From contig NZ_JAUSBN010000054.1 of assembly GCF_030651995.1 (NCBI RefSeq), positions 1 to 64,000 on the forward strand: a stretch of DNA of 64,000 nucleotides, read 5' to 3'. Positions 5,849 to 14,890 of the stretch are shown piece after piece. A model generated the notes under the pieces. It was not told the DNA's origin and searched no databases. It worked only from the letters and a program-made list of their open reading frames with translations. This DNA is from Reyranella sp. (GTDB taxonomy: Bacteria; Pseudomonadota; Alphaproteobacteria; Reyranellales; Reyranellaceae). Every line of letters starts with the position of its first letter. Within the stretch, counting starts at the first letter, position 1. A program made the translations under genes and the position numbers.

Positions 5849-7483
5849 ATGAAGACCGGCCCGGCAGTCGCGGAAATCCTGAAGCGCGAGGGGGTCGAGT
5901 ATCTCTTCGCCTATCCCGTCAACCATCTGATCGAACACTGTGCCGCGATCGACATCCGGCCGATCATCGTGCGCCAGGAGCGCATCGGCCTGCACATGGC
6001 CGACGCCATGTCGCGCATGACCAAGGGCCGCAAGATGGGCGTGTTCTGCATGCAGAGCGGCCCGGGCTCGGAGAACGCCTATGGCGGCGTGGCGCAGGCC
6101 TACGGCGAATCGGTGCCGCTGCTGGTCATCCCGGCGGGCTACCCGCGCCGCATCGCCCATGTGCCGCCGAACTTCAACTCCACCATCACCATGGCGCATG
6201 TCGCCAAGCATGCCGAGCCGATCACCTCGGGCGCCGACATCGAGAACGTCATGCGCCGGGCCTTCAGCCTGCTGCGCAACGGCCGCGGCTCGCCGGTCAT
6301 CATCGAGTTCCCGGCCGAGGCCAATGGCGAGGACGCGCCCGATCCGCTGACCTACGAGCCGATCAAGCCGACGCGCTACGGTCCCGATCCGGCGGCCGTG
6401 AAGGAAGCCGCCAGGGTGCTGGTCGAGGCCAAGCGCCCGGTCATCTATGCCGGCCACGGCGTGCACTGGGCCGAGGCCTATGACGAGCTGAAGGAACTGG
6501 CCGAGCTGCTGGCGATTCCCGTCTGCACCTCGCTGCAGGGCAAGAGCAGCTTCGACGAAACCCACCCGCTGTCGCTGGGCTCCGGCGGCCGTGCCTATCC
6601 GAGGCAGGTCCGCCACTTCCTCGACAAGTGCGACGTGCTGTTCGGCATCGGCTGCTCCTTCACCGAGACCAACTTCGGTATCTCGATGCCGAAGGGCAAG
6701 ACGGTGATCCACACCACGCTCGACCCCAACCATCTCAACAAGGACGTTCGCTGCCAGTACGGCCTGATCGGCGATGCCAAGCTCGCGCTCCGCGCCATGA
6801 TCGACGAGTGCAGCAAGCTGGTCGGGGGCAAGAAGCGCGACGCCGCGCCGGTCGTGGCGGAGATCAAGCCGATCGCCGACGCGTGGCTCGACGAGTGGAT
6901 GCCCAAGCTCACCAACAACGAGGCGCCGCTCAATCCCTATCGCGTTCTGTGGGACCTGCAGCACACGGTCGACAAGGCCAACACGATCATCACCCACGAC
7001 GCCGGCAGCCCGCGCGACCAGCTCTCGCCGTTCTGGAAGACGACGGCGCCGCACACCTATATCGGCTGGGGCAAGACCACGCAGCTGGGCTATGGGCTCG
7101 GCCTCGCCATGGGCGCCAAGCTCGCCTGCCCCGACAAGCTCTGCATCAATGTCTGGGGCGACGCGGCCATCGGCTTCACCGGCATGGACTTCGAGACGGC
7201 GGTGCGCGAGCGCATTCCGATCATGTCGATCCTGCTCAACAACTTCTCGATGGCGATCGAGCTGCACATCATGAAGGTGTCGACCGAGAAGTACCGCTCG
7301 ACCGACATTTCCGGCGACTATGCCGCCATGGCACGCGCCTTCGGCGGCTATGGCGAGCGCATCACCCGGCCGGAGGACATCATCCCGGCGATCAAGCGCG
7401 GCATCGAGCAGACCCAGAAGGGTGTGCCCGTGCTGCTGGAGTTCATCACCTCGAAGGAAGTGACGATCTCGACACCTAAGTGA
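5849..7483 (+). CDS. Thiamine-diphosphate-dependent enzyme, acetolactate-synthase-like
   Basis: A 544-residue enzyme with the three-domain layout of the acetolactate synthase / pyruvate oxidase family. The N-terminal PYR domain carries the cofactor-activating Glu44 in VRQER and the Q-S-G-P-G segment. The middle domain is at about 190-330. The C-terminal PP domain has WGDAAIGFTG and, about 20 residues later, LLNN, a thiamine-diphosphate motif with GDA in place of the usual GDG. AAAGGGA precedes the ATG. The redoxin-like selenoprotein candidate starts 19 bases after its stop, so they are probably one operon. Substrate unknown. Confidence 0.85.
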   Translation: MKTGPAVAEILKREGVEYLFAYPVNHLIEHCAAIDIRPIIVRQERIGLHMADAMSRMTKGRKMGVFCMQSGPGSENAYGGVAQAYGESVPLLVIPAGYPRRIAHVPPNFNSTITMAHVAKHAEPITSGADIENVMRRAFSLLRNGRGSPVIIEFPAEANGEDAPDPLTYEPIKPTRYGPDPAAVKEAARVLVEAKRPVIYAGHGVHWAEAYDELKELAELLAIPVCTSLQGKSSFDETHPLSLGSGGRAYPRQVRHFLDKCDVLFGIGCSFTETNFGISMPKGKTVIHTTLDPNHLNKDVRCQYGLIGDAKLALRAMIDECSKLVGGKKRDAAPVVAEIKPIADAWLDEWMPKLTNNEAPLNPYRVLWDLQHTVDKANTIITHDAGSPRDQLSPFWKTTAPHTYIGWGKTTQLGYGLGLAMGAKLACPDKLCINVWGDAAIGFTGMDFETAVRERIPIMSILLNNFSMAIELHIMKVSTEKYRSTDISGDYAAMARAFGGYGERITRPEDIIPAIKRGIEQTQKGVPVLLEFITSKEVTISTPK

Positions 7484-7502
7484 TTTGGAACGGGAGGCCG
7501 CG

Positions 7503-8561
7503 ATGACGAAGATCCTCACGCCCACGGGCGAGCACGACGTCGCCGCGCATGACGGCCTCTGGATGAGTCCCGTCGATGCCGAGCGGGTCACGGGCTGGAC
7601 TCTGAAGCCCGAGGGCATGTGTCGTGCCGATCTGTGCGTGCCGCTGCCCGCTTCCGCGCTCGCGCCCAACGAAGTCGACCTCGAAGCCTTCTGGAAGAAG
7701 CTGGGTGGCCCCGTGATCGCCAGCGAGGCGCGCGACGTGTGGGCATTGGGGGCGCCGGCCGAGGAGCGCAATGCCGCGCTCGAAGGTCTCGAGGCGCCCG
7801 ACTTCACCCTGCCGGATCTCGACGGCATGCCGCGTTCTCTGTCGCAGCTGCGCGGCCGAAAGGTCTTCCTCGCGACATGGGCCAGTTGGTGAGGCTGCCG
7901 TTTTGACTTGCCCGTGTGGCAGGCCCTCTACGAAGAACTGAAGGACAAGGGGTTCATGGTCGTGGCCGTGGCGGAGGAAAGCCGCGGTGCCGAACATGCG
8001 CGTCCGTGGATCGACCAGGCCGCATCGTCCTACTGGCAACTGATCGACGCCGATCATCGGCTCGAGGATCTCTACAATCTCGTGAACGTCCCGCAGGCGA
8101 TCTGGATCGACGAACAGGGCCGGATCGTACGCCCGCCCGAGACGGCCGGGTCGACCGATCACTTCCGGCGCATGGACCTCGCGACGCGCACGATGACTCC
8201 CGAGGACCAGGCAGACCGCCTGGCGGCGCGGCAGGCCTATCTCGATGCGGTGCGCGCCTGGGTCGCCACCGGGGCGCATGCCTTGCCGGCCGACCAGGCG
8301 CGCGCAGGCCTGCCGAAGGTCACGCCCGAGATTGCGGAGGCGCGGGCGCGCTTCCGGCTGGGGCTGTGGCTGCGCGCCAATGGCCGCGTCGCCGAAGGCG
8401 ACCTGCAGATGGCGGAGGCAAGTCGCCTGCACCCCGACTCGTGGAGCCTGTGGCGCCAGGCGGCGGACCTCGACGAGGTTGGCAAGGCCTCGGGTCCGGA
8501 GTTCTGGAAGCGCGTGCAGGCGCTCGGCGATCGCCCCTATTATCCGCCACCCAAACTGTAG
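7503..8561 (+). CDS. Redoxin-like protein, candidate selenoprotein (in-frame UGA at codon 130)
   Basis: Reading through TGA 7890-7892 gives a 352-residue protein. Residues about 95-250 form a thioredoxin/AhpC-TSA-like fold (APDFTLPDLDG start, then KVFLATWASW-U-G-C-R, then VPQAIWID). The C-terminal part is helical and TPR-like. The UGA sits exactly where redoxins carry the first active-site cysteine, one residue before Cys132, and the frame downstream stays open for 222 codons. I recall a ResA-like family with a WAxxUGC motif that fits. The start ATG has GGGAGG five bases upstream. The alternative is a recent nonsense mutation of a TGC codon. Confidence 0.75.
7905..7924 (+). promoter_or_regulatory. 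Candidate bacterial SECIS hairpin
   Basis: CTTGCC (7907-7912) pairs with GGCAGG (7918-7923), including one G-U pair, around the loop CGTGT. The pair G7905-C7924 can extend it past a bulged A. The loop begins 20 nt after the UGA and has a G in its second position. A short upper stem, a small loop with an early G and 16-37 nt spacing from the UGA are the properties known for bacterial SECIS elements that bind SelB. Confidence 0.5.
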
Positions 8562-8582
8562 TTCGCGAGCGATACGGACCCG

Positions 8583-8594
8583 CAACAATTGTTG
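8583..8594. promoter_or_regulatory. Perfect palindrome upstream of the Mo-hydroxylase/fcc-sox operon
   Basis: CAACAATTGTTG is a perfect 12-bp dyad in the 141-base gap before the long operon, 109 bases ahead of the first start codon. It could be an operator, but I see no second copy and no confident promoter hexamers. The ribosome binding site of the first gene is GGGAGG near 8693. Confidence 0.3.
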
Positions 8595-8702
8595 ATGGTC
8601 AGCGAGGCCATCACACCTCCGTGAGAGCGGACGGTTGCTTGGGCGGTCGCGCCCTCGCTGGGCTACGCTGTTTCCATATTTCCTGAACAACGGGAGGCTG
8701 GG

Positions 8703-9152
8703 ATGGCTGTCCTCAATGTCAACGGCAAGGCGGTCGACTACAATGCCGATCCGGATACTCCACTGCTCTGGGTGCTGCGTGAACAACTGGGTCTGACGGG
8801 CACCAAGTATGCCTGCGGTATCGCACAATGCGGCTCCTGCACGGTCCATATCGATGGTGCGCCGGTGCGTTCGTGCAGCGTACCGGTGAACGCTGTCGGC
8901 ACCCAGAAGGTCGTCACCATCGAAGCGCTGGCCGAGAACGGCGTGCTGAACAAGATCCAGAAGGCCTGGGTCGAGCTCGACGTACCCCAGTGCGGCTACT
9001 GCCAGAGCGGCATGGTGATGGCGGCGACGGCGCTGCTCGCGGCCAAGCCGAATCCGACCGATGCCGACATCGACGAGGCGATGACCAACATCTGCCGTTG
9101 CGGCACCTACCAGCAGGTCCGCGCCGCGATCCACGCCGCCGCCAAGGCCTAA
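8703..9152 (+). CDS. (2Fe-2S) subunit of a molybdenum hydroxylase (IorA-like)
   Basis: A 149-residue electron-transfer subunit with two [2Fe-2S] sites. The plant-ferredoxin site is Cys38, Cys43, Cys46 and Cys58 (C-G-I-A-Q-C-G-S-C). The helical-domain site is Cys97, Cys100, Cys131 and Cys133 (QCGYC…NICRC). This is the small subunit of isoquinoline 1-oxidoreductase / aldehyde dehydrogenase type enzymes, passing electrons from the molybdopterin subunit encoded next. It opens an eight-gene operon reaching 14890. Confidence 0.92.
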
Positions 9153-9167
9153 GGGGAGGGACGCATC

Positions 9168-11339
9168 ATGACGATCCAGACATCTCTCGGCCGTCGCGGC
9201 TTCCTGGTCAGCGGCGCCGCCGTCGCCGGCGGTTTCTCGCTCGGCTTCCACCTGCCCTTCGACGAAAGCGTGGCGCATGCTCAGGCCGTCAAGGAACTGA
9301 ACGCCTGGGTGGTCATCCATCCCGACGACAAGGTGGTCATCCGCATCGCCCGCTCCGAAATGGGCCAGGGCACGCTCACCGGCCTCTGCCAGCTCGTGGC
9401 CGAGGAACTGGAGTGCGACTGGAACAAGGTCACCTGGGAATATCCGACGCCCGGCGAGAACCTGAAGCGCAACCGCGTCTGGAGGAACTTCTCGACCGGC
9501 GGCAGCCGCGGCATTCGCGAAAGCCAGCAGTATGTCCGCGAAGGCGGCGCCATCGCGCGCGAGATGCTGATCGCGGCCGCGGCCAAGCAGTGGAACGTGC
9601 CGTCTGCGGAGTGCAGCGCGGCCAACAGCACCGTCACGCACAAGGGATCGGGCAAGACGCTGACCTATGGCGCCCTCGCGGCCGCAGCGGCCCAGCTCGA
9701 GCCGCCCAAGGAAGTGAAGCTCAAGGACCCCAAGGACTGGAAGGTCGCCGGCAAGCCGCTGAAGCGGCTCGACACGGTCGACAAGGTCACGGGCAAGCAG
9801 ATCTATGGCATGGATCACACGATGCCAGGCATGCTCAACGCCACTGTGCGCGCCTGCCCGGTGATCGGCGGCAAGCTCAAGGACTTCGATGCCAGCAAGG
9901 CCGAGAAGATGCCGGGCGTGAAGAAGATCTTCGCCATCGACGGCAACGCCGTCGTGGTGGTGGCCGACACCTACTGGCAGGCCAGGACGGCACTCGAGGC
10001 CGTCACGACCAACTGGGACATCGGCGATCTCGGCAAGGTCTCGACCGCGACGATCAACGCCATGCTCAAGGAGGGTCTCGACGCCAAGGAAGCCTTCGTC
10101 GGCAACAAGGCGGGCGACGCCCAGAAGGCGATCGACGGCGCGGCCAAGAAAGTCGAGGCCGTCTACAGCTTCCCCTATCAGCATCATGTCACCATGGAGC
10201 CGATGAACGCCACGGCGCGCTACACGGCCGACAGGTGCGAGGTCTGGTGCGGCACGCAGAACGGCGAGGCGGCTCTTGCCGCCGCGTCGGAAGCGGCTGG
10301 CCTGCCGATCGCCAAGTGCGAGGTCTACAAGCTGATGCTGGGCGGCGGCTTCGGCCGGCGCGGCCGGTCGGACTATGTGCGTCAGGCCGTGCTCGCGGCC
10401 AAGGAGATGCCCGGCACGCCGATCAAGCTGATCTGGTCGCGCGAAGAGGACATGACGCACTGCCAGTACCATCCCACGACGATGGCCAAGATGACGGCCG
10501 GTCTCGACGCCCAGGGGAACCTGGTCGGACTGCACGTGCGCATCTCCGGCCAGTCGATCCTGGCCTCGCTGCTGCCGCAGAACCTGGTGAACGGCATGGA
10601 CCCGATCGCCTTTCAGGGCCTCATGGCGTCCGGCGTCGAGGCGGCGTATGGCTACGACATCCCGAACCTGATGATCGACCACGCCATGCGCAACCCGCAC
10701 ATCACGGCCGGCTTCTGGCGCGGCGTGAACGTGAACCAGAACGCCGTCTACATGGAATGCTTCATCGACGAGCTGGCGGCGGCAGCGGGCCAGGATCCGC
10801 TCGCCTACCGCCTCAAGTACCTGAAGCCGAAATGGGCGGCGGTGCTGAAGGCCGCCTGCGACAGAGCGGGCTACGGCAAGCCGCTGCCCGAGGGCCGCTT
10901 CCACGGCATCTCGCAGGTCATGGGCTATGGCAGCTACGTCGCCGGCGTCGCCGAGGTCTCGGTGAGCCCCGACGGGCAGCTCAAGATCCACAAGATCACG
11001 GCGGCCACCAATCCCGGCCACGTGGTCAATCCGGCGCAGATCGACCGCCAGGTCGCGGGCTCGTTCGTCTATGGCCTGTCGGCTGCCCTGTACGGCGAGA
11101 TCACCGTGAAGGACGGGGTGGTCGAGCAGACCAACTTCGACACGTACAACGTGATGCGCATCGACGAGATGCCCGACGTCGAAACGGTGCTCGTGCCGAC
11201 CAACGACTTCTGGGGCGGCGTCGGCGAGCCGACCATCGCCGTGGCAGCGCCTGCCGTCCTGAACGCCATCGCCAAGGCGACAGGCAAGAGGGTGCGCAAC
11301 CTGCCGCTGATGAACAGCGACCTGAAGAAAGGCGCCTGA
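9168..11339 (+). CDS. Molybdopterin-binding subunit of a xanthine-dehydrogenase-family hydroxylase (IorB-like)
   Basis: A 723-residue catalytic subunit. The N-terminus has a twin-arginine-type signal (SLGRRGFLVSG followed by a hydrophobic run), implying export as a folded complex with the small subunit. Family motifs include EMGQGTLTG near residue 63, GGGFGRRG near residue 395, and GVGEPTIAVAAPAV close to the C-terminus, where the base-catalyst Glu of this family lies. It oxidises an aldehyde or N-heterocycle; the substrate cannot be told. The stop overlaps the ATG of the next cytochrome gene, which could be its electron acceptor. Confidence 0.9.
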   Translation: MTIQTSLGRRGFLVSGAAVAGGFSLGFHLPFDESVAHAQAVKELNAWVVIHPDDKVVIRIARSEMGQGTLTGLCQLVAEELECDWNKVTWEYPTPGENLKRNRVWRNFSTGGSRGIRESQQYVREGGAIAREMLIAAAAKQWNVPSAECSAANSTVTHKGSGKTLTYGALAAAAAQLEPPKEVKLKDPKDWKVAGKPLKRLDTVDKVTGKQIYGMDHTMPGMLNATVRACPVIGGKLKDFDASKAEKMPGVKKIFAIDGNAVVVVADTYWQARTALEAVTTNWDIGDLGKVSTATINAMLKEGLDAKEAFVGNKAGDAQKAIDGAAKKVEAVYSFPYQHHVTMEPMNATARYTADRCEVWCGTQNGEAALAAASEAAGLPIAKCEVYKLMLGGGFGRRGRSDYVRQAVLAAKEMPGTPIKLIWSREEDMTHCQYHPTTMAKMTAGLDAQGNLVGLHVRISGQSILASLLPQNLVNGMDPIAFQGLMASGVEAAYGYDIPNLMIDHAMRNPHITAGFWRGVNVNQNAVYMECFIDELAAAAGQDPLAYRLKYLKPKWAAVLKAACDRAGYGKPLPEGRFHGISQVMGYGSYVAGVAEVSVSPDGQLKIHKITAATNPGHVVNPAQIDRQVAGSFVYGLSAALYGEITVKDGVVEQTNFDTYNVMRIDEMPDVETVLVPTNDFWGGVGEPTIAVAAPAVLNAIAKATGKRVRNLPLMNSDLKKGA

Positions 11340-11632
11340 TGCATCGAGCGCTGCTGCCGGGCCTGACCAGCATGATCCTGCTGGCCGGTCCGGCAACGGC
11401 GGCCGATGCGCCGCCGGGCGCCAGCTCCTGCACCGGCTGTCACGCGTCGAAGAAAGTGTCGGATTCGGTGATCCCGCGCATTGCCGGCCGCAAGGCCCCG
11501 GACATCGTCACCTTGATGAGCGACTATCGCAGCGGCGCCTGGCCCTCGAGCGTGATGGGCCGCATCGCCAAGGGATTCGACGACCGGCAGACTGAAGCCA
11601 TCGCGGCCTGGTTTGCCGCGCAGCCGGAGTAG
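11339..11632 (+). CDS. fccA: Monohaem cytochrome c, FccA-like
   Basis: A 97-residue exported cytochrome. A signal peptide (ending ATA around residue 21) precedes a haem motif C-T-G-C-H (Cys31, Cys34, His35). The following IPRIAGR…MSDYRSG…VMGRIAKGF pattern is typical of the cytochrome subunit of flavocytochrome c sulfide dehydrogenase. The ATG overlaps the stop of the upstream gene (TGATG), and the flavoprotein subunit follows 13 bases later. Besides pairing with FccB it might serve the molybdenum hydroxylase. It is not in a long frame of its own, so it is easily missed. Confidence 0.82.
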   Translation: MHRALLPGLTSMILLAGPATAADAPPGASSCTGCHASKKVSDSVIPRIAGRKAPDIVTLMSDYRSGAWPSSVMGRIAKGFDDRQTEAIAAWFAAQPE

Positions 11633-11645
11633 GGACACAGCGGGC

Positions 11646-12902
11646 ATGGCGACGCGCCGTCATTTCCTGAAGATCAGCGCCGCGGCCGGCCTCGCGCCGG
11701 CCGTCGTTTCGGCGCAGGGCAAGGCCAGGGTCGTGGTGATCGGCGGCGGCTTCGGCGGCGCCACGGCGGCGCGCACCCTGAAGGCGCTGCAGCCCGCGCT
11801 CGACGTCACGCTGGTCGAGCCAAGTCCCGTCTATACCTCGTGCCCGTTCAGCAATTCGGTGCTCGCGAACCTGCGCGAGATCGACCAGCAGCAGTTCCGT
11901 TACGACGGCATCAAGGCGGCCGGCGTTACGATCGCGGAGACGAGCGCGACCGCGGTCGATGCCGAGGCGAAGACCGTGGCCCTGGCCGACGGCAACAGGC
12001 TTGCTTACGACCGGCTGGTCATGTCTCCCGGCATCGACTTCAACTGGGGCGCCCTCCCCGGCTACGACGAGGCCGCGGCCGAGAAGATGCCGCATGCCTG
12101 GAAGGCGGGGGCGCAGACCGTGCTGCTGCGCCGGCAGTTGCAGGCGATGGATGATGGCGGGCTGGTCGTCCTGTCGGCGCCGGCCAATCCCTTCCGCTGT
12201 CCGCCCGGACCCTACGAGCGCGCGAGCCTGATCGCCTACTGGCTCAAGATATGGAAGCCGAAGTCGAAGCTCCTGCTGCTCGATTCCAAGGACGCCTTCT
12301 CCAAGCAGCGCCTGTTCCAGAACGGCTGGGCCGAACTCTACCCGGGCATGATCGAGTGGGTGCCGCTCAGCCAGGGCGGCAAGGTGACGGCGGTCGATCC
12401 CGCGACGCTCACGCTCACGACCGAGTTCGCGAGCCACAAGGCTTCCGTCGCCAACGTGATCCCGCCGCAGAAGGCCGGCGCCATTGCGGCGCAAGCCGGC
12501 GTTGCCGATCGCACCGGCTGGTGCCCGGTCGAGCCGGTCGCCTTCGAATCAACCCTGCGCCCCAACATCCATGTGCTGGGCGATGCGGCGATCATGGGCG
12601 GCATGCCCAAGTCGGCCTTCGCGGCCAATGCCCAGGCCAAGGTCTGTGCCTCGGCGATCGTGAAGCTGCTGGCCGGCGAGAAGCCGCAGGATCCGATCCT
12701 GATCAACACCTGCTACAGTCTCGTCGCGGCCGACTACGGAATCTCGATCGCCGGCGTCTATCGTCCCGACAAGGGCCGGCTCACCGACATTCCCGGTGCC
12801 GGCGGCACCAGCCCGCTCGAAGCCGTAGGTGGCCTGCGGGGCCAGGAGGCGCTCTATGCGTCGAGTTGGTTCCGCACCATTGCCGCCGAGACCTTCGGCT
12901 GA
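11646..12902 (+). CDS. fccB: Flavocytochrome c sulfide dehydrogenase, flavoprotein subunit
   Basis: A 418-residue periplasmic flavoprotein with a twin-arginine signal (MATRRHFLK, residues 1-23). The Rossmann motif VVVIGGGFGG binds FAD. The redox-active cysteines of FccB are both present: Cys185 in PFRCPPGPYERAS and Cys356 in INTCYSLV. The C-terminus has the ASSWFRTIAAETFG ending typical of the family. It oxidises sulfide and passes electrons to the FccA cytochrome. It lies inside the operon with soxXYZA, where the same protein type is called SoxF. Confidence 0.92.
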   Translation: MATRRHFLKISAAAGLAPAVVSAQGKARVVVIGGGFGGATAARTLKALQPALDVTLVEPSPVYTSCPFSNSVLANLREIDQQQFRYDGIKAAGVTIAETSATAVDAEAKTVALADGNRLAYDRLVMSPGIDFNWGALPGYDEAAAEKMPHAWKAGAQTVLLRRQLQAMDDGGLVVLSAPANPFRCPPGPYERASLIAYWLKIWKPKSKLLLLDSKDAFSKQRLFQNGWAELYPGMIEWVPLSQGGKVTAVDPATLTLTTEFASHKASVANVIPPQKAGAIAAQAGVADRTGWCPVEPVAFESTLRPNIHVLGDAAIMGGMPKSAFAANAQAKVCASAIVKLLAGEKPQDPILINTCYSLVAADYGISIAGVYRPDKGRLTDIPGAGGTSPLEAVGGLRGQEALYASSWFRTIAAETFG

Positions 12903-12906
12903 TGCG

Positions 12907-13353
12907 ATGCGGGTCCTGGTCCTCCTCGCCCTCGCGTTCGTCGCTGGTCCCGCGGTGGCCCAGCAGCCTGCTCCTCCCGTCGTGCCGCAGATCGTCGACG
13001 ATTCGATCCCCCGCTCGCTCACCGGCCGGCCGGGCGATGCGGCGCGCGGCCGGGCGATCGTTGCCAGCCGCAGCGTCGGCCTCTGCCTGCTCTGCCATTC
13101 GGGACCGATTACCGAGGAGCGCTTCCAGGGCGACCTGGCGCCCAGCCTCGCCGGCGCGGGGTCGCGCTGGTCGGAAGGACAGCTGCGCCTGCGCATCGTC
13201 GACGGGTCGCGTCTCAATGCCGACACGATCATGCCCGCCTACTATCGCATCGAGGGCTTGCACCGGGTTGCCCGCAACTTCGAGGGCAGGACGATTCTCA
13301 CCGCCGCCCAGGTCGAGGATGTCGTGGCCTATCTCGTCACGTTGAGGGATTGA
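12907..13353 (+). CDS. soxX: SoxX, monohaem cytochrome c of SoxAX
   Basis: A 148-residue protein with a signal peptide (cleavage after AVA, about residue 18) and one haem motif, C-L-L-C-H (Cys60, Cys63, His64). The axial Met is probably Met109 in ADTIMPAYYR, and the GDLAPSLAGAGSRW segment is characteristic of SoxX. With SoxA it attaches thiosulfate to the SoxY carrier in the periplasm. The ATG at 12907 lies four bases after the fccB stop; the upstream extension of the frame overlaps fccB. Confidence 0.92.
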   Translation: MRVLVLLALAFVAGPAVAQQPAPPVVPQIVDDSIPRSLTGRPGDAARGRAIVASRSVGLCLLCHSGPITEERFQGDLAPSLAGAGSRWSEGQLRLRIVDGSRLNADTIMPAYYRIEGLHRVARNFEGRTILTAAQVEDVVAYLVTLRD

Positions 13354-13797
13354 ATGGATCGACGTCTCTTCCTTGCCGGCACGGCTGCCGTCGTTCTCGT
13401 GCCGCTCTCGCCCGCGACGGCGACCCCCGATGCCATGGCCGAGGCCATCCGCAAGGTCGTCGGGACGGCTACGCCGACCGAAGGCCGGGTCAAGCTCGAC
13501 GTCCCGCCGCTTGTCGAGAACGGCAGCACCGTACCGCTCACCGTGTCGGTCGACAGTCCGATGACCGAAGCCGACCATGTGAAGGCGATCCACGTCTTTA
13601 ACGAGAAAAACCCGCAGCCCAACGTCTTCTCCGCGCGCCTCGGCCCGCGCAGCGGCAAGGCCGTCATCGGCACGCGCATCAAGCTCGGCGACAGCCAGCG
13701 GATCGTGGCCATCGTCGAAACCAGCGACGGTAAATTCCTGAGTGCCGGCGCCGATGTGATCGTGACCCTGGCTGCCTGTCTCGAGGAATCGCCCTGA
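13354..13797 (+). CDS. soxY: SoxY sulfur-carrier protein with atypical C-terminus
   Basis: A 147-residue protein with a twin-arginine-like start (MDRRLFLAG) and the SoxY immunoglobulin-like fold. The carrier cysteine is Cys142, but the tail reads V-T-L-A-A-C-L-E-E-S-P. Canonical SoxY proteins end in a flexible GGCGG with the cysteine next to the terminus. Here the glycines are missing and five residues follow the cysteine. It starts directly after the soxX stop and is followed, with a one-base overlap, by soxZ. Either this is a divergent carrier class or its exchange partners differ from those of the thiosulfate pathway. Confidence 0.88.
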   Translation: MDRRLFLAGTAAVVLVPLSPATATPDAMAEAIRKVVGTATPTEGRVKLDVPPLVENGSTVPLTVSVDSPMTEADHVKAIHVFNEKNPQPNVFSARLGPRSGKAVIGTRIKLGDSQRIVAIVETSDGKFLSAGADVIVTLAACLEESP

Positions 13798-14117
13798 TGT
13801 CGAACATCCTGGTGAACGCTCCGAAGACCGCCAAGCGCGGCGCCGCCATCGAGATCAAGGCGCTGATCATGCACCCGATGGAGACCGGCTTCCGGCCCGG
13901 TCCGAACGGCCGCATCATCCCGCGCAACATCATCGAGCGATTCACCGCGACCTGGAACGGCGCCGAAATCTTCACGATGGACATGTCGCCGGCGATCGCC
14001 GCCAATCCATTCGTGTCTTTCTTCGCCGAGGCGAAGGAGAGCGGCACGGTGGTCCTGCGCTGGACCGGCGACGAGGGCTTCGCCGCCGAGCAGCGGGTCG
14101 ACATCGCCGTCGAATGA
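13797..14117 (+). CDS. soxZ: SoxZ, partner of SoxY
   Basis: A 106-residue protein without a signal peptide, consistent with export as a complex with SoxY. The conserved LIMHPMETGFR and FTATWNG…FTMDMSPAIAANPF segments identify SoxZ. Its ATG overlaps the soxY stop (TGATG) and its stop overlaps the soxA ATG (ATGA), so translation of soxY-Z-A is coupled. Confidence 0.94.
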   Translation: MSNILVNAPKTAKRGAAIEIKALIMHPMETGFRPGPNGRIIPRNIIERFTATWNGAEIFTMDMSPAIAANPFVSFFAEAKESGTVVLRWTGDEGFAAEQRVDIAVE

Positions 14118-14890
14118 CCGCGCGGCTGCTCGTCATCGGCTTGGCGCTGGTGTTCGCCGCATCCTATGCGGCCGCGCAAGTTGGCGCGGACAAGCGGCGG
14201 TCCGGCTACCAGGACATGGGCGAGGCCCTGCAGAAGATGCAGGACGACGATACGGCCAATCCCGGCATGCTGTTCGTCCAGCTCGGCGGCCAGCTCTGGA
14301 ACAGGGCGGTCGGGGCAGCCGACAAATCCTGCGCCGATTGCCATGGCGACGCCGCCGTCAGCATGAAGGGCGTGGCCGCGCGCTATCCCGCGATCCCGCA
14401 GGGCAGTGACCGTCCGGTCGATCTCGAGGGCCGCATCAACCTCTGCCGCACCGAGCATCAGAAGGCCGAGCCTCTGCCGCCGGAGAATCGCGACCTGCTG
14501 GCGCTCGCCGTGTATGTCGCGCACCAGTCGCGCGACCTGCAGATCGCGCCGCCCTATGACCCGCGCCTCGATGCCTTTCGCCGGGAGGGCGCCGAGATCT
14601 ATCGCCTCCGCCAGGGCCAGCTCAACCTGTCCTGCGCGATCTGCCATGACGACAATGCCGGCAAGAAGCTGGCGGGCATCGTCATTCCGGAGGCCCATCC
14701 CACCGGCTATCCGATCTATCGCCTGGAGTGGCAGGCGCTGGGCTCCCTGAAGCGCCGCCTGCGCAACTGCCTTGTCGGCATCCGCGCCGAGGCCTGGCCG
14801 CTCGATGCGCCGGAATATGTCGCGCTGGAACTCTATCTCATGCAGCGCGCCCGGGGACTGAAGCTGGAAACGCCGGCCGTCCGGCCTTAG
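14114..14890 (+). CDS. soxA: SoxA, dihaem cytochrome c of SoxAX
   Basis: A 258-residue protein with a signal peptide (about residues 1-21) and two haem motifs, C-A-D-C-H (Cys73-His77) and C-A-I-C-H (Cys174-His178). The active-site cysteine that becomes the persulfide ligand is Cys219 in RNCLVGIRAEAW. Together with SoxX it forms the SoxAX enzyme. This is the last gene of the operon; soxB and soxCD are absent from the window. Confidence 0.94.
   Translation: MTARLLVIGLALVFAASYAAAQVGADKRRSGYQDMGEALQKMQDDDTANPGMLFVQLGGQLWNRAVGAADKSCADCHGDAAVSMKGVAARYPAIPQGSDRPVDLEGRINLCRTEHQKAEPLPPENRDLLALAVYVAHQSRDLQIAPPYDPRLDAFRREGAEIYRLRQGQLNLSCAICHDDNAGKKLAGIVIPEAHPTGYPIYRLEWQALGSLKRRLRNCLVGIRAEAWPLDAPEYVALELYLMQRARGLKLETPAVRP

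Follow-up and report, generated by a model that had tools for sequence, protein, structure and literature searches.

The Locus and Its Reading Frame

The window analyzed here, a stretch of 64,000 nucleotides of a Reyranella sp. contig (NZ_JAUSBN010000054.1, positions 1 to 64,000), contains on its forward strand a frame that starts at ATG 7503, meets one in-frame TGA at 7890-7892 (codon 130), and stays open for a further 222 sense codons up to the TAG at 8559-8561, just as the original prediction had described it. Translation through the TGA as selenocysteine (Sec) gives a protein of 352 residues, with the sequence KVFLATWASW-U-GCRFDLPVWQ around Sec130. The gene, its parts, and the signals associated with it are as follows.

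7503..8561, plus strand: probable selenoprotein gene for a ResA/TlpA-like protein of 352 residues with a WASWUGC motif and Sec at codon 130 (frame, profile match, TGA conservation, and structure model)
7492..7497, plus strand: GGGAGG, Shine-Dalgarno-like, probable ribosome binding site (seen directly in the sequence only)
7503..7757, plus strand: N-terminal region, about residues 1-85, with the invariant pair C40-x4-C45 (homologue alignment; confident model)
7758..8174, plus strand: domain of thioredoxin type (ResA/TlpA, AhpC-TSA), spanning roughly residues 86-224 (Pfam, profile, and structure matches)
7890..7892, plus strand: in-frame TGA, read as selenocysteine 130 (TGA in 58 of 58 loci covering the site)
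7896..7898, plus strand: codon of Cys132, presumed resolving cysteine (invariant, 25 of 25)
7908..7922, plus strand: bacterial SECIS-like hairpin, stem 7908-7912/7918-7922 plus the pair C7907-G7923, apical loop CGUGU at 7913-7917
8175..8558, plus strand: C-terminal region, mostly helical, weakly TPR-like in some homologues (model, Pfam)

Frame length alone is weak evidence for a gene here, because the DNA is GC-rich and antisense open reading frames of more than 1000 codons (1089 and 1306 aa in a mechanical ORF list) overlap the selenoprotein gene. Codon usage was coding-like on both sides of the TGA, with scores of 0.19 and 0.18 for the two complete halves. To be retained in a codon-score screen of the 64 kb, trained on ten genes of the window, a TGA had to have at least 40 codons on each side and a score above 0.15 over the nearest 300 nt on both sides, thresholds that we set ourselves. 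TGA 7890-7892 was the only one that passed, its upstream side barely (0.15 when rounded). The NF041054 profile spans the TGA (residues 23-351, E 8.9e-87), and the AhpC-TSA profile scores 57 bits against the read-through protein versus 22-23 bits against each half alone.

Domain Organization and Predicted Fold

The best Pfam matches of the read-through protein were AhpC-TSA (PF00578, 57 bits against a cut-off of 26) and Redoxin, with GSHPx below threshold. The N-terminal region of the window protein (about residues 1-85) had no Pfam match. In the C-terminal region, TPR_14 was matched in 11 of 25 family members at E 0.01, the window protein having no such match. The protein alignment took in 25 of the 58 loci, and the residues invariant across these 25 homologues include C40, C45, Sec130, G131, C132, Asp135, W139, and P197; the position of P197 presumably resembles that of the cis-Pro of thioredoxins. 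No export signal or membrane anchor was apparent in the window protein when judged by eye.

The structure model was confident (mean pLDDT 93.7, pTM 0.90). With this predicted model as the query, ResA structures headed the Foldseek list (2f9s, E 2.4e-11), and VIA returned 3gl3_B (Z 15.2, rmsd 2.2, 140 residues aligned) and 1st9_A (Z 14.7, rmsd 2.2, 136 aligned). In the VIA list, DsbE-like proteins and ResA reached Z 13.9-15.2 and peroxiredoxins 11.7-12.9, a small difference. The best matches to ResA and DsbE-like proteins cover about residues 89-259, and these comparisons hardly probe residues 1-85 and 260-352. A profile alignment with 3kcm placed U-G-C on the CxxC motif, with Sec on the first catalytic Cys and one residue missing before the second. 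This agrees with the earlier proposal that the UGA occupies the first catalytic cysteine position of a thioredoxin-like protein, with a Cys two residues on. The protein is predicted to adopt a ResA/TlpA-like thioredoxin fold, in which Sec130 takes the place of the first cysteine of the CxxC motif and the second Cys follows two residues later.

Conservation of the TGA and Distribution of the Gene

A tblastn comparison yielded 59 rows, the window and 58 further loci. One row (L056) begins at residue 187 and therefore lies outside the 58, window included, that cover position 130. All 58 carry TGA at this position, their gene sequences all differ from one another, and the lowest identity to the window protein among the TGA-bearing loci is 37%. 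Together with the alignment of the first catalytic Cys of 3kcm to residue 130, this answers the call of the original prediction for homologues with Cys or Sec at that site. Two of the 58 loci (L033 and L074) contain one additional in-frame stop elsewhere in the gene. The genomes found to have the gene include those of R. massiliensis (L031) and R. aquatilis (L026).

Within the class, the gene was found in 22 of 385 genomes, as 25 matches with one TGA each; one match (in G313) carries a TAG besides its TGA. SelA was detected in 56 of the 385 genomes, including all 22 that have the gene (Fisher 5.8e-21, phylogeny ignored). Within the order, the gene was present in 71 of 76 genomes and in 51 of the 51 with a listed completeness of 90% or more and contamination of 5% or less. 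A hand count from the table of this search gave 78 of 79 matches containing TGA, counted as presence per match rather than by its place row by row; the remaining match is a fragment past the site. Five of the 71 gene-bearing genomes of the host family (G749, G759, G770, G785, and G794) had no SelA match. Each of the five is a draft assembly of 140-770 contigs, and three fall inside the completeness and contamination limits above; the absence of SelA likely reflects assembly gaps.

With thresholds of 1e-25 to 1e-40, no full-length Cys version was found in the sampled genomes of the class, the phylum, or the order. For the class and the phylum, scoring took in the best five first-look candidates per genome, and Cys relatives with weaker matches may have escaped detection. 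Among 398 genomes of Pseudomonadota, the sequences matched were those of the window's own genome, one genome of the same genus, G422, and G625. The latter two, which are without TGA, were rejected as full-length Cys versions, their matches covering the thioredoxin domain only (113 and 139 profile positions). Plasmids held no homologue at a threshold of 1e-20.

Some genomes hold two divergent members: L058 and L081 in G091, L059 and L079 in G123, and L078 and L080 in G227, in each case one of the WAPYUGC type and one of the SSWUGC or ASWUGC type. Two matches, some of them fragments, were also seen in eight genomes of the order. In a tree of 54 of the 58 sequences, which left out four short or interrupted rows (L033, L057, L074, and L078) and has long branches and no outgroup, the window sequence sits among Reyranella rows. 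Four contigs titled Rhizobium, Asaia, or Enhydrobacter aerosaccus (L042, L049, L035, and L054) were also placed among Reyranella rows, which suggests that these records are mislabelled.

Selenocysteine Machinery

A check for selA, selB, selC, and selD, advised together with the original prediction, found all of them in the genome. The first three are grouped on contig 34 and selD lies apart on contig 80.

C34:124489-125580: selA, same genome
C34:125737-127587: selB, same genome, 465 bits
C34:128052-128143: tRNA-Sec (selC), anticodon TCA, same genome
L107:4086-6365 (contig C80), minus strand: selD, fused, 297 bits

In the fusion protein, SelD follows a pyridine nucleotide-disulfide oxidoreductase domain, and the SelD sequence reads MRCGGCGAK. 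The fusion scores below the cut-off for TIGR04369, 'oxidoreductase/SelD-related fusion protein'. Fusions of Ndh with SelD that carry a CxxC motif are described in PMC2398784.

At a threshold of 1e-60, the TIGR01553 Sec formate dehydrogenase was missing in 16 of the 22 gene-bearing genomes of the class, that of the window included; the 22 genomes gave 54 TIGR01591 matches, all free of internal stops. The Sec trait can therefore persist without a Sec-containing formate dehydrogenase. In two relatives in the genus (G280, contig C17, and G358, contig C2), a TGA-bearing TIGR01553 formate dehydrogenase gene lies at a distance of about 3 kb from selA.

A SECIS-Like Hairpin Downstream of the UGA

RNAalifold, applied to an RNA alignment of 33 of the 58 sequences, returned a single hairpin in which 7908-7912 pair with 7918-7922 around the loop CGUGU, 20 nt past the UGA; the DNA at this site reads TTG CCC GTG TGG CAG. 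The bacterial SECIS constraints given in PMC13188914 are a loop of 3-9 nt, a stem of 4-16 bp, G among the first two nucleotides of the loop, a spacing of 16-37 nt, and an MFE of at most -7.5. All 33 folded sequences conform, with a stem of at least 4 bp, a 5-nt loop with G second, a spacing of 20 nt, and an MFE of -7.5 or lower, taken as the lowest value over stretches of 36-55 nt starting at the UGA; the 22 nt around the hairpin alone fold at -3.3 to -12.2.

The stem pairs in 98.8% of the cells of the 33-sequence alignment, in which the changes within the hairpin were one-sided and no two-sided compensatory change was found. Neither its covariation score, equalled by 118 of 500 shuffles, nor its pairing, equalled by 33 of 500, stood clearly above the shuffles. 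In the minimum-energy fold of the window's own sequence, the SECIS hairpin gives way to a pairing of GGCAG with CUGCC lying upstream, and the stability of this fold did not differ from that of shuffles (z -0.03); the rival stem holds in 90.9% of cells against 98.8% for the SECIS-like hairpin. The codons underneath the hairpin are restricted. Val138 is encoded by GTG in 23 of 24 rows, the strongest codon conservation among 105 scored sites, and Leu136 by TTG or CTG only, a choice that supports constraint on the RNA. An Rfam scan of 6500-9500 gave nothing above threshold; a sub-threshold match to a CRISPR repeat was dismissed as chance.

Gene Neighborhood

Upstream, a PRK06154-like thiamine pyrophosphate enzyme gene (5849-7483, 861 bits) ends 19 bp before the selenoprotein gene. 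Of 34 named loci, 32 have this enzyme gene upstream, 0 to about 3.4 kb away (the other two loci are at contig ends), and so do three further regions from the same genus. Sox sulfur-oxidation genes occur 4-7 kb downstream (11340-14890), where SoxX, SoxZ, and SoxA score above their NCBIfam cut-offs and the gene between SoxX and SoxZ is SoxY by position; we labelled a further product in this stretch, from weak matches, as a flavocytochrome-like FAD protein. In many Reyranella loci the Sox region stands next to the selenoprotein gene; none of the regions fetched outside the genus has it.

Twenty-four regions were fetched for the class matches, 21 of them from outside the genus and several of these cut by contig ends. 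In 20 of the 21, none of 19 other window genes tested was matched; the exception (L085, same family, outside the genus) had a match to an alpha/beta-hydrolase only. An all-against-all comparison of the fetched regions disclosed no widely shared neighbor, and the two largest neighbor clusters were antisense shadows of the selenoprotein gene itself. As no neighbor is widely shared beyond the genus, the neighborhood was rejected as a clue and no function was drawn from it.

Relation to Known Families

The original prediction pointed to a ResA-like family with a WAxxUGC motif. Such a family exists as NF041054 (NCBIfam WAxxUGC_long, 'ResA-like WAxxUGC motif-containing protein'), but the window protein scores 8.4 bits below its curated cut-off (291.6 bits against 300; 285 in the genome search). 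The likeness extends over the full length, with residues 23-351 of 352 matching profile positions 10-353 of 354, and includes the Sec position and the W-A-x-x-U-G-C motif, which for NF041054 we took from the family's name. Of the 22 matching genomes of the class, 6 reach the cut-off, and a homologue from the same host family (G186) passes at 309.7 bits; the cut-off therefore looks slightly high for this clade. The top scorers (486 and 494 bits) have WAPYUGC and share about 40% identity with the window protein.

A 'Prx-like (UGC-containing)' family assigned to pfam00578, with 46 Sec and 855 Cys sequences, appears in the 2008 GOS survey (PMC2398784). Two other papers name a 'UGC-containing Prx-like protein' (PMC9312934) and a 'UGC-containing TlpA disulfide reductase family protein' (PMC13188914). 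By these descriptions, the window protein shares with them the pfam00578 or TlpA-type (cd02966) domain and the UGC motif. The GOS family has its 855 Cys sequences, whereas no full-length Cys version of the long form described here was seen. The model name NF041054 does not occur in the main text of PMC13188914. A text search of the literature found no paper naming WAxxUGC or a bacterial ResA-like selenoprotein, and a search for a Reyranella selenoprotein returned only papers that seemed unrelated by title and start of abstract. The protein is a member of the already catalogued UGC-type TlpA/Prx-like selenoproteins and not a new kind.

With the ResA, TlpA, and CcmG thiol-disulfide oxidoreductases the protein shares the predicted thioredoxin fold and the placement of Sec130 at the first catalytic Cys. 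It differs from them in having UxC for CxxC, additional N- and C-terminal regions, and, by eye, no export signal or anchor. Against the ResA model NF002854 (PRK03147), whose motif we take to be CxxC, it scores 69.8 bits, below the curated 170, and has UGC in place of that motif.

Alternative Readings

A stop codon between the halves of a known fold has the look of a pseudogene, and the original prediction had allowed for a TGC or TGT turned into TGA. Sequencing error is excluded, as 58 mutually different gene sequences share the TGA. For a broken gene in general, whether by mutation or by error, the chance is negligible in view of those 58 of 58 loci, of the order search (71 of 76 genomes, with TGA in 78 of 79 matches and the last one a fragment that starts past the site), and of coding scores that are about equal on either side. 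The mechanical ORFs flanking the TGA could instead be two genes, one for an N-terminal protein of 129 aa and one for a protein of 217 aa restarting at TTG 7908. Such a split would fall inside one thioredoxin domain, ahead of its second redox residue, and would cut off from the second protein Gly131, Cys132, and Asp135, which lie ahead of TTG 7908 and do not vary among the 25 aligned homologues; the AhpC-TSA score of 57 bits for the whole against 22-23 per half also speaks against it, and we consider this arrangement scarcely conceivable. Reading of the UGA as another amino acid, by a near-cognate Trp tRNA or a reassigned code, draws on the facts that Sec is read here from sequence, that the window's own fold does not favor the SECIS hairpin, and that five draft genomes have the gene but no SelA match. 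It is nonetheless very improbable given that the position is that of the catalytic Cys of the fold, that all 22 gene-bearing genomes of the class sample also have SelA, that the genome has a tRNA-Sec, that codon choice downstream is constrained, and that no further TGA in the window passed the screen.

A different kind of alternative accepts Sec130 and concerns the activity, the enzyme being a peroxiredoxin-like peroxidase and not a thiol-disulfide oxidoreductase. In its favor, Pfam ranks AhpC-TSA and Redoxin first and adds GSHPx below threshold, and PMC2398784 calls the UGC family Prx-like. The closest structures, in contrast, are DsbE-like proteins and ResA (Z 13.9-15.2 versus 11.7-12.9 for peroxiredoxins, a small difference), and the presence of another redox residue two positions after Sec130 would fit disulfide exchange. 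We consider a peroxidase possible, with the odds somewhat against it.

Proposed Mechanism and Implications

The reading of the locus as a single gene for a 352-residue selenoprotein with Sec at UGA 7890, which the original prediction put forward, is strongly supported by the conserved TGA, the sel genes, and the SECIS-like hairpin, and from these sequence data we place its probability at about 95%. In the mechanism that we propose, SelB carrying Sec-tRNA would bind the hairpin at 7908-7922, and Sec would be inserted at UGA 7890. The nucleophile would be Sec130, positioned where helix 131-149 begins, and Cys132 would resolve it as a short Sec-Gly-Cys selenenylsulfide, where ResA has its CxxC disulfide. 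Its probable role is cytoplasmic, the protein acting as a thiol-disulfide oxidoreductase or a thiol peroxidase. More speculatively, the C40/C45 pair could be linked to the active site as its partner or as a relay.

The gene encodes a well-supported, uncharacterized selenoprotein that is near-universal in one bacterial family. With a score just under the NCBI family cut-off, it is at risk of being annotated as two ORFs or as a pseudogene. The selenoprotein gene is a candidate client of the Sec machinery in this genome and may be a main reason for keeping it. A bolder version, which we regard as doubtful, is that the family exists in the Sec form only, that a Sec-Gly-Cys ring together with C40/C45 performs chemistry beyond the reach of cysteine, and that in Reyranellaceae and several further lineages of alphaproteobacteria the Sec machinery is kept by this family, not by formate dehydrogenase. 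The finding poses a testable question, namely which selenoprotein maintains the Sec trait in alphaproteobacteria without a Sec-containing formate dehydrogenase.
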